From positions 1 to 38,016 of the forward strand of contig JAILPE010000020.1 of NCBI GenBank assembly GCA_024699645.1: a DNA stretch of 38,016 nt, in the 5' to 3' direction. This DNA comes from Lachnospiraceae bacterium. GTDB lineage: Bacteria > Bacillota > Clostridia > Lachnospirales > Lachnospiraceae. The position numbers were made by a program, and so were the translations under genes. Every line of letters starts with the position of its first letter. Position 1 is the stretch's first letter. The notes under the pieces were generated by a model. It was not told where the DNA came from, searched no databases, and saw nothing but the letters and a program-made list of their open reading frames with translations. Shown piece after piece: positions 33,513 to 38,016 of this stretch.

Positions 33513-34490
33513 ATGGATAACAAACGTCCCGAAAGTATGGAAAGAATCAATGACACAGAAAAAGCAATGAAGTTTATCAATGAGCAGGTAGAGATTATAA
33601 AGAAGACTGTCGGTGACGGCAAAGTCCTTCTTGCACTTTCGGGAGGTGTGGATTCGTCGGTTGTGGCGGCCCTTCTTATAAAGGCAATCGGAAAGCAGCT
33701 TGTGTGCGTACATGTTAATCACGGACTTCTTCGTAAGGGAGAGCCCGAGCAGGTTATCGACGTATTCCGCAGACAGCTTTCGGCAAATCTTGTATATGTA
33801 GATGCGGTAGACAGATTTTTAAATAAACTTGAGGGAGTTTCTGATCCCGAAAAGAAGCGTAAGATCATCGGCGCTGAATTTATTGAAGTGTTCGCTGAAG
33901 AAGCACGCAAACAGGAAGGTATCAAATTCCTTGCACAGGGTACAATTTATCCCGATATCCTTGAGTCTGACGGAGTTAAGGCACATCACAATGTTGGCGG
34001 TCTTCCCGAGGAGCTTAACTTTGAGCTTGTTGAGCCCGTCAAGTTCCTTTATAAGGATGAAGTCCGCGTAGTAGGTAAGGCACTCGGCCTTCCCGATAAC
34101 ATGGTATATCGTCAGCCTTTCCCCGGACCCGGACTCGGTGTTCGTTGTACAGGCGCCATCACTCGCGACCGTCTTGAGGCAGTTCGTGAATCCGATGCGA
34201 TCGTTCGTGAGGAATTTGCGGCAGCAGGCCTTGAAGGCAAGGTATGGCAGTACTTTACGGTAGTTCCTCCCATCACATCAACCGGTATCAAGGATGGAAA
34301 GCGTACAGAAGACTGGATCGTGATCATCCGCGCAGTCAACTCCGTTGACGCAACAAGCGCAACTATAGAGCCTATCCCTTACGAAGTTCTCGGTAAGATC
34401 GTTAACAGGATCATAAGCGAAGTTAAGGGCGTAAGCAGAGTTGCATACGACTTGAGTCCCAAGCCTGTGGCAACAATTGAGTGGGAATAA
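33513..34490 (+). CDS. guaA: GMP synthase, ATP-pyrophosphatase + dimerisation domains only (subunit B-like)
   Basis: LALSGGVDSSVV, VHVNHGLLRKGE, FLAQGTIYPDILES, HHNVGGLPE, RQPFPGPGLGVRC, C-terminal PKPVATIEWE; no glutamine amidotransferase domain in the ORF or immediately upstream. Confidence 0.93.
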   Translation: MDNKRPESMERINDTEKAMKFINEQVEIIKKTVGDGKVLLALSGGVDSSVVAALLIKAIGKQLVCVHVNHGLLRKGEPEQVIDVFRRQLSANLVYVDAVDRFLNKLEGVSDPEKKRKIIGAEFIEVFAEEARKQEGIKFLAQGTIYPDILESDGVKAHHNVGGLPEELNFELVEPVKFLYKDEVRVVGKALGLPDNMVYRQPFPGPGLGVRCTGAITRDRLEAVRESDAIVREEFAAAGLEGKVWQYFTVVPPITSTGIKDGKRTEDWIVIIRAVNSVDATSATIEPIPYEVLGKIVNRIISEVKGVSRVAYDLSPKPVATIEWE

Positions 34491-34983: not shown

Positions 34984-35135
34984 CGAATCAGGTGATACCT
35001 AAGAAACATAGAGGACCGGAATTGGATTAAGCTACTTACTTGATAGACAGTGACGGGGTCGTGTCACGCTCCCGTTCTATGTCAATCAGACAAGATTCTT
35101 GTAGAATTATCTGGACAAATACGCGTATAAATATC

Positions 35136-35164
35136 TGGACAAAATGCTATGTCCATGATATGAT
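35136..35164 (+). promoter_or_regulatory. Promoter of AlbA_2/HTH gene, -35 embedded in a repeated motif
   Basis: TGGACA (35136-35141), 17-bp spacer, TATGAT (35159-35164); -35 lies in repeat TATCTGGACAAA (copies at 35108 and 35132). Confidence 0.6.
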
Positions 35165-35192
35165 CACAGAGTATTATGAGAGGAGGTTTTAG

Positions 35193-36521
35193 ATGGTTAT
35201 AGGATCTGAAAGTGAAACCGTTGAGTTTAAGCTTACTACCGGAGAAAAGAATGAAGCTGTGGAAGCTATAGCAGCCATTTTGAATAAACATTGCAGAGGT
35301 ACAGTTTACTTCGGCGTTGATGATTCCGGATTTGTTAGGGGACAACAGATCAGTGATTCCACAAAAAAAGATATATCAAGGATAATTAGCGACTCTATTG
35401 AACCAAGGATTGCACCAACGATAGAGGTGCTCACTATAGAACAGCGTACGATAATTAAGGTGTCATTTTCCGGGCATAACAGACCCTATGCAGTTAATGG
35501 CAGGTATCTCATTCGTACAGGGACAGAGAATAAACGTATGTCTCCTGATGAATTAAAGCGATTGATAAAGAATGATGATTACTCTTCCAAATGGGAAGAA
35601 GAGATGACGGATTATACCGCTGAAGACCTGGACGATGAAGCGCTTAAAGATTTCTATCAGTCTGCAAAAGACTGCGGTCGCTTATCCATGAAAACATATG
35701 ACAAAGAGAAGCTGCTTACTACCATTGACATCATACACGATGGGCAAATAAATAATGGTGGGTATGCCCTTTTTGGAAAAAATGCAAAGATAGGGTTAAA
35801 ACTTGCATCGTATGCGACGGATAATAAAGTCACGTTTACAGATCTGAAGTTGCTTGAGGGTAATATCTATAATCTCGTAAATGCTGCGTTAGATTACATT
35901 TTGAATCGCATTAATTGGAGAGGGGAGATCGGGACGAGAAAGAGGAAAGAGATCCCGGAGATTCCCGAAGAGGCGATACGTGAAATCATAGTAAATGCTT
36001 TTGCTCACGCAGATTATGAAACCGTTCCGGAGATTGAAATAGGTATTCATCCTGGCAAGATTGAGATATATAACCCCGGATCTTTTCCGGATGGTCTCAC
36101 GCCTATAGATTTTATATCAAGGAATCTTCCGTCTTACAAAAGGAATAAGCTTATATTGGATATTCTGTTTCGAAGTAAAGACGTGGAGAAATCTGGCACC
36201 GGCTTCCAGCGTGTAAATGATTTTTGCAAACAACAGAATGTGACATGGAATTATAGAAAAGAGGCATATGGGTTCTTCTTCGAATTTATCAGGACAAATG
36301 TCCAGATAAATGTCCAGATAAATGCAGAGCTCACAGAGGCAGAGCAGGTTATTTTCAATCTGATTCAGAATAATGAGGGAATATCAAAAGCTGAGATGGC
36401 GATAAGAATAGGAAAGTCGGAAAAGACTGTACAGAGGCTTATTTCTTCTCTCATGAAAAAACAGGTGATTGAGAGGGAGGGATCAAATAAAACAGGTAGT
36501 TGGAAAATTATGGTAAAGTAG
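35193..36521 (+). CDS. AlbA_2 (Schlafen-like) domain, HATPase-like, C-terminal winged-HTH protein (COG2865-type)
   Basis: ESETVEFKLT...VAIAAILNKHCRGTVYFGVDDSGFVRGQ-type N-terminus; EIIVNAFAHADYE, IEIYNPGSFPDGLTPIDF, RSKDVEKSGTGFQRV; C-terminal LIQNNEGISKAEMAIRIGKSEKTVQRLISSL. Confidence 0.85.
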   Translation: MVIGSESETVEFKLTTGEKNEAVEAIAAILNKHCRGTVYFGVDDSGFVRGQQISDSTKKDISRIISDSIEPRIAPTIEVLTIEQRTIIKVSFSGHNRPYAVNGRYLIRTGTENKRMSPDELKRLIKNDDYSSKWEEEMTDYTAEDLDDEALKDFYQSAKDCGRLSMKTYDKEKLLTTIDIIHDGQINNGGYALFGKNAKIGLKLASYATDNKVTFTDLKLLEGNIYNLVNAALDYILNRINWRGEIGTRKRKEIPEIPEEAIREIIVNAFAHADYETVPEIEIGIHPGKIEIYNPGSFPDGLTPIDFISRNLPSYKRNKLILDILFRSKDVEKSGTGFQRVNDFCKQQNVTWNYRKEAYGFFFEFIRTNVQINVQINAELTEAEQVIFNLIQNNEGISKAEMAIRIGKSEKTVQRLISSLMKKQVIEREGSNKTGSWKIMVK

Positions 36522-37531: not shown

Positions 37532-37640
37532 AATTCTACTGAAGAAAAATGCGGAAATCCGCAAAAAAGTTAATTGAGTTATTGTTTTATCATAAGGGAT
37601 GCAGTACAATTCTACTGAAGAAATGTGCGGAATCCGCAAT
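37532..37640 (+). repeat. Two direct repeats (77 bp apart), each with a TGCGG/CCGCA inverted repeat, flanking a promoter
   Basis: aattctactgaagaaaaatgcggaaatccgcaa (37532-) and aattctactgaagaaatgtgcggaatccgcaa (37609-); TTGTTT-N17-TACAAT at 37582-37610. Confidence 0.8.
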
Positions 37641-37665: not shown

Positions 37666-38016
37666 ATGGAGATAAGAAGAGACATATATCTTGACAAGCT
37701 GATTTTAAAAAAGCAGAACAAACTGATAAAAGTGATCACGGGAATCCGCAGATGTGGCAAATCATATCTGCTTTTTAACCTGTTTAAGGATCACCTTGAA
37801 TCAGAGGGCGTTCCTGATGATCATATTATTGAAATGGCATTTGACCTATATGAGAATATTGACTACAGGGATCCAAAGGTTTTCTTCCCTTATGTTAAGG
37901 AGCAAATTAAAGATAAGGAAATGTATTATGTCCTTTTGGATGAGGTGCAGCTGCTTAAGGAATTTGAGGCTGTGCTAAACAGTCTGTCACGAATGAAGAA
38001 TGTGGATGTATATGTG
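37666..38016 (+). CDS. AAA-type ATPase (DUF4143-associated family), 3' truncated by window end
   Basis: Manual translation from ATG 37666: MEIRRDIYLDKLILKKQNKLIKVITGIRRCGKSYLLFNLFKDHL...YVLLDEVQLLKEFEAVLNSL; Walker A GIRRCGKS, Walker B LLDEVQ. Missing from the ORF track because no stop occurs in the window. Confidence 0.85.
   Translation, partial: MEIRRDIYLDKLILKKQNKLIKVITGIRRCGKSYLLFNLFKDHLESEGVPDDHIIEMAFDLYENIDYRDPKVFFPYVKEQIKDKEMYYVLLDEVQLLKEFEAVLNSLSRMKNVDVYV

Follow-up and report, generated by a model that had tools for sequence, protein, structure and literature searches.

A candidate intragenic operator in the interdomain linker of a Schlafen AlbA_2/GHKL ATPase/winged-HTH gene

Described systems and the gene under study

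The auxiliary operators lac O2, in lacZ, and gal OI, in galE, of E. coli lie inside genes, and as in the locus described here, the promoter site recurs inside the downstream coding sequence. These two operators sit in a target gene, whereas the candidate site here belongs to the gene of the regulator itself, where it occupies linker codons beside the DNA-binding domain, and, unlike lac O2 and gal OI, it covaries with the promoter across the family. Short phased direct repeats are also the building blocks of helically phased operators and iterons, such as plasmid iterons, parC/tubC and the omega repressor sites; the arrays described below, for which binding is predicted, resemble them in this respect, but those systems are mostly noncoding, whereas many of the present arrays lie in coding DNA, sometimes in more than one reading frame. 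Intragenic operators are a known kind of element; searches of the open-licence literature found none described in linkers of the present type.

A published account associates Schlafen-histidine-kinase-wHTH proteins with BREX and with other defence systems (PMC12839542); the protein studied here has the same order of Schlafen/AlbA_2, GHKL-like ATPase and wHTH. The passages of that paper that bear on these proteins treat nuclease effectors and gene neighbourhoods, and operator sequence in linkers does not appear in them. The COG2865 group has been called RecG-related through its similarity to RecG (PMC7641849), and regulation data for COG2865 or for DIP2311 (structure 3lmm) were not found in the open-licence literature.

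The window, i.e., the whole stretch of 38,016 nucleotides that was analysed, contains the following gene, which is labelled WIN in the locus comparisons, where the other loci carry L and a number. Start codons and promoters are predictions throughout, and many of the compared loci are metagenome-assembled.

35193..36521, + strand: Schlafen AlbA_2 - GHKL-type ATPase (HATPase_c_4) - winged HTH gene, 442 aa (Pfam, AF2)
36336..36509, + strand: region encoding the winged HTH (residues 382-439), the domain proposed to read the motif (HTH_24 match, AF2)

The 442-aa protein has the COG2865-like order of AlbA_2, HATPase_c_4 and C-terminal HTH, with Pfam matches above the cut-off for SLFN_AlbA_2 (residues 6-117, 2e-18), HATPase_c_4 (280-350, 8e-13) and HTH_24 (387-427, 1e-6), and its closest solved structure, by both fold and sequence, is 3lmm (DIP2311). 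The AF2 model has a mean pLDDT of 74, falling below 50 at linker residues 370-375, and its wHTH consists of helices 382-393, 399-406 and 410-422 plus wing strands. In the search for the catalytic acids of the Schlafen RNase core, E6, E8 and E11 proved invariant in the clade alignments, and no residue was assigned as the third acid.

The neighbours in the window are a guaA-type gene, a TehB-like methyltransferase and an AAA_14 gene, where the window stops, and no BREX core gene adjoining the studied gene was recognised within it. Upstream of the AAA_14 gene, which begins at 37666, stands a near-identical pair of ATTCTACTGAAGAAA..TGCGGAA..TCCGCAA elements (about 37533-37566 and 37609-37640). In three genomes the gene is located 3' of guaA (window 33513-34490 and the flanks of L034 and L041); this location, together with identity of up to 98% across bacterial families, suggests that guaA is the insertion site of a mobile island. 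Further members of the same clade, L244 and L245, occur on Mycoplasmopsis arginini plasmids, where their neighbours are type I restriction genes and an integrase; the L244 copy is split over several frames.

The promoter and linker clusters

The two clusters and the predicted promoter lie as follows.

35108..35119, + strand: promoter motif copy 1, TATCTGGACAAA (exact match; conserved block in 12 homologous promoters)
35132..35143, + strand: promoter motif copy 2, TATCTGGACAAA, which includes the -35 hexamer TGGACA (exact match; conserved block)
35150..35155, + strand: TGTCCA, an inverted half-site between -35 and -10 (mostly TG[TC]CCA in homologues)
35136..35164, + strand: predicted sigma-70-like promoter, TGGACA-N17-TATGAT, with which the motif copies overlap (motif match)
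36286..36321, + strand: linker cluster, a candidate operator, TTATCAGGACA-AA-TGTCCAGATAA-A-TGTCCAGATAA, which encodes IRTNVQINVQIN (exact match, synonymous conservation)

The two TATCTGGACAAA copies are 24 bp apart, and the hexamer of the second forms with the half-site an inverted arrangement, TGGACA-N8-TGTCCA, that spans 35136-35155. The predicted promoter (TGGACA at 35136-35141, TATGAT at 35159-35164) agrees with the sigma-70 consensus at 10 of 12 positions and has a TG extension; the -10 element of most homologues is TATAAT or TACAAT. In 12 homologous promoters with diverged flanks, the blocks that were kept are TATATGGACA, a second TATATGGACA 22-24 bp further on, TGTCCATGATATAAT and the ribosome-binding site, conservation being strongest at the motif copies and the -10.

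The word TATCTGGACA stands twice at the promoter and twice more, next to a near copy, in the linker codons, which lie about 1.15 kb downstream and directly precede the wHTH. In the 2.13 Mb genome it has eight exact matches; four of these are at the promoter and linker of this gene, and the other four are solitary and within unrelated ORFs, for which reason a genome-wide TATCTGGACA regulon was rejected. When one mismatch is allowed, the window contains seven sites, five of them in the two clusters, against 1.9 expected, a number reached in 1 of 100 shuffles. Pairing of the promoter copies with the linker copies in mRNA was also rejected, because the promoter copies precede the predicted transcription start.

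Covariation in the clade and constraint on the linker codons

The members of the clade to which WIN belongs are about 37-98% identical and extend from Lachnospiraceae to Mycoplasmopsis, and their promoter and linker words shift jointly (TGGACA, GTGACA, TGGCAC, ATGATAAGAT). A tree of the core domains, which leaves out linker and wHTH, supports the clade at 100/100 and requires at least three motif changes. In a permutation with ten representatives, which treats related genes as exchangeable, the own-pair score was 145 versus a mean of 46 (p=5e-5). The relatives with other words are more distant (about 37-45% identity), and promoter and linker agree in most of them: GTGACA at the promoter goes with TGTCAC in the linker in L051, L054, L212, L235, L252 and the plasmid gene L245 of Mycoplasmopsis arginini, L213 and L251 have TGGCAC, and L253 has AAATGATAAGATAA. 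The orientation of the two clusters is inverted in WIN and L245 and the same in L253, L122 and L140. A linker copy is absent from the clade members L047 and L048 (lost) and L255, and L214 combines an eight-copy promoter array with a weak linker match. These exceptions and the varying orientation count against the operator reading proposed below. Scans of viral contigs for further clade members found none. The same pattern, with new words in both places, occurs in a separate clade formed by L140 (TGTCGGTTTGAA) and its 39% relative L288 (GTTGGGAAAA).

The recognition helices differ across the motif groups as well (KSEKTVQRI, RTVQR[AS]L, KSLRTIQRT, KSTPTIKRH), and this bears on whether both clusters could be bound by another protein of the host or of a mobile element, or be recombination sites. 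Such an origin would fit a gene that moves between families, given a 98% identical copy in an Erysipelotrichaceae MAG, the position 3' of guaA in WIN, L034 and L041, and the return of the linker word past the stop codon in L203, L154 and L215, where it brackets the wHTH region. However, there is no reason to expect that a host factor would switch its word jointly with the recognition helix of this gene, or find a match in hosts as distant as Mycoplasmopsis, and this alternative is unlikely. Recognition by the encoded wHTH itself is the preferred reading.

Across ten homologues down to 67% identity, synonymous conservation in the linker windows (0.82-0.85) is the highest of the gene, whose mean is 0.50, and all of the twelve top windows cover or touch the linker. 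Furthermore, AGGACAAATGTCC (AGG ACA AAT GTC C) is nearly fixed among the homologues, while the adjacent Gln codon varies (CGG, CTA, CAA), which argues for constraint on the DNA. The 8-mers shared with the promoter show a sole peak in the clade genes, with 125 per 1000 positions at the linker versus about 7 elsewhere. Synonymous recoding of the linker abolishes its match to the promoter: in WIN, the observed sharing was reached by 8 of 20,000 recodings, and in the other genes by 0 of 5,000 (L245, L253, L212, L140), 1 (L054), 4 (L252 and L235), 32 (L213), 35 (L122) and 86 (L288). L051 (291) and L046 (1,201) are not significant alone in this test.

Thus, covariation, the 8-mer peak, synonymous conservation and the loss of the match on recoding together show, on comparative grounds, that the WIN linker codons are under DNA-level constraint beyond that of the protein alone. 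An earlier, sequence-only reading of this DNA had noticed the word shared by promoter and linker and proposed that the linker codons are constrained; all of its sequences and coordinates were confirmed, the sharing exceeds chance in both shuffles and recodings, and the constraint is borne out by the four lines of evidence just named. It had also proposed a comparison of homologues, to be judged by whether promoter/linker correspondence exceeds background; when this comparison was made, the idea held up in the clade. Its suggestion that the wHTH protein may bind both clusters, and may autoregulate through a loop of about 1.15 kb, went further; such binding and autoregulation would be consistent with the data.

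As in an intragenic auxiliary operator, the same word stands at the promoter and in the gene and is conserved as DNA. The locus does not resemble a phase-variable simple-repeat gene, since the unit in the clade is 12 bp, present in 2-4 copies and in frame; its copy number is stable within the WIN subgroup. The cluster could also be a functionless relic, left from a copying of promoter DNA into the linker or from the fusion of a stand-alone wHTH gene together with its operator, and such a history would account for arrays that directly precede the wHTH in any frame. Nevertheless, a fossil would hardly retain synonymous conservation in homologues down to 67% identity or change its motif jointly with the promoter, repeatedly, so that this origin is quite improbable.

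The COG2865 family and the proposed autoregulation

The wider sample comprised 166 COG2865-type genes, mostly from Lachnospiraceae, with other families of the phylum also included. Tandem 8-mer repeats were found in 64 of the 166 linkers, in comparison with 2 mid-gene segments and 0-2 codon-shuffled linkers. The units are 10-12 or about 21 bp long (e.g., L104, L114, L115, L124, L126 and L129) and mostly have no promoter match, so that a linker array does not require the arrangement seen in the clade. Their spacings concentrate at 10-14 and 20-24 bp, about one and two helical turns, while 9, 15 and 18 bp are almost absent even though they keep the frame; in 19 of the 64 arrays, the spacings are not multiples of three, which puts a single DNA word into more than one reading frame. 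Both the spacings and the out-of-frame copies point to DNA-level selection on the linker repeats across the family.

These data also weigh on another explanation, in which replication slippage generated a flexible linker peptide of low complexity whose likeness to the promoter is coincidental. Many members of the family do have repeated linkers, and tandem duplication is tolerated in linkers. However, slippage leaves unexplained why codon choice matches the promoter beyond the amino acids, why synonymous conservation peaks in the linker, why promoter and linker covary through motif changes, and why the preferred spacings and the copies in different frames occur; it is very improbable indeed.

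The sequence-only reading had further supposed that the promoter-linker correspondence might be general in COG2865, and in that form it fails, because outside the two clades the agreement of promoter and linker words does not exceed background. Repeated linkers are common, but among the roughly 160 genes outside the clade there is no linker peak of promoter words, and the linker-upstream match of 61 non-clade arrays is at background (mean mid-p 0.49). A narrower rule, promoter-linker agreement within the clades, holds for the genes compared. Clear promoter matches outside the main clade are found in L122 (the clearest case outside both clades), L140 and L288; L267, 78% identical to L122, keeps the linker word without the promoter match of L122. 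L178 scored well and was rejected, as its upstream region was unconvincing on inspection. In the wider flanks, linker words occurred in 28 of 57 genes versus 21.6 expected from swaps, a weak excess but for a few post-stop sites.

Upstream arrays were detected in 29 of the 166 genes, versus 1-5 in shuffles, and in 22 of 247 control upstream regions; they and the linker arrays are usually in different genes. Mutual exclusion of the two (Fisher p=0.036) was not retained, since different subfamilies could explain it.

It is probable, judging from these comparisons, that the wHTH binds both clusters and represses its own promoter, with the linker cluster as an auxiliary operator. At the -35 and spacer of its own gene, the wHTH would recognise both the overlapping direct repeats of TATNTGGACA and the TGTCCA half-site in inverted orientation. 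The linker cluster would strengthen the repression of the encoded protein, either because the ATPase core, if dimeric, connects it to the promoter or because RNA polymerase is blocked inside the gene. GHKL domains often dimerise. During evolution, a change in wHTH specificity would come with a joint change of the sites at promoter and linker. An effector with the predicted RNase role could be harmful, and its tight autorepression would make sense in view of the likeness to the defence-linked Schlafen-histidine-kinase-wHTH proteins.

Looping and roadblock cannot be told apart from the present sequence evidence. A linker operator that works without looping, whether as a roadblock, with RNA polymerase stopped by protein bound in its own gene, or as a local protein sink, is a sub-case of the same explanation with a different mechanism and draws on the same sequence evidence; many COG2865 genes have a linker array and no promoter array, so that the loop partner is missing there. 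In the clade, however, promoter sites are kept alongside linker sites, which suggests joint action, and the non-looping mechanism is possible though somewhat doubtful. In either form of autorepression, the linker codons would seem to be held as candidate operator DNA for the encoded protein, with promoter, linker and recognition helix coevolving. The repetitive linkers of AlbA_2/GHKL/wHTH proteins, a widespread oddity, would find an explanation at the DNA level, and predicted binding sites become available for a family that is large and uncharacterised and probably acts in defence. More speculatively, the wHTH module might carry its own operator in the preceding linker DNA, reader and site being inherited, transferred and re-specified as a unit; if true, the coding linkers of the family would form a library of operator arrays, and the linker of each gene would reveal the specificity of its wHTH.

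Two further arrangements were seen in the sample. Phased direct-repeat arrays at the promoter only, with a plain linker, occur in L190/L194/L196/L204, L149/L223/L239/L292, L143, L119 and L063, with words such as ATTGAAGTGAC, GTAGCAAATAAA and GTGGGTATAAAT in up to about ten copies. In L203, L154 and L215, the post-stop copy of the linker word lies within about 30 bp of the stop codon, and that of L203 is a palindrome with 20 bp identical.
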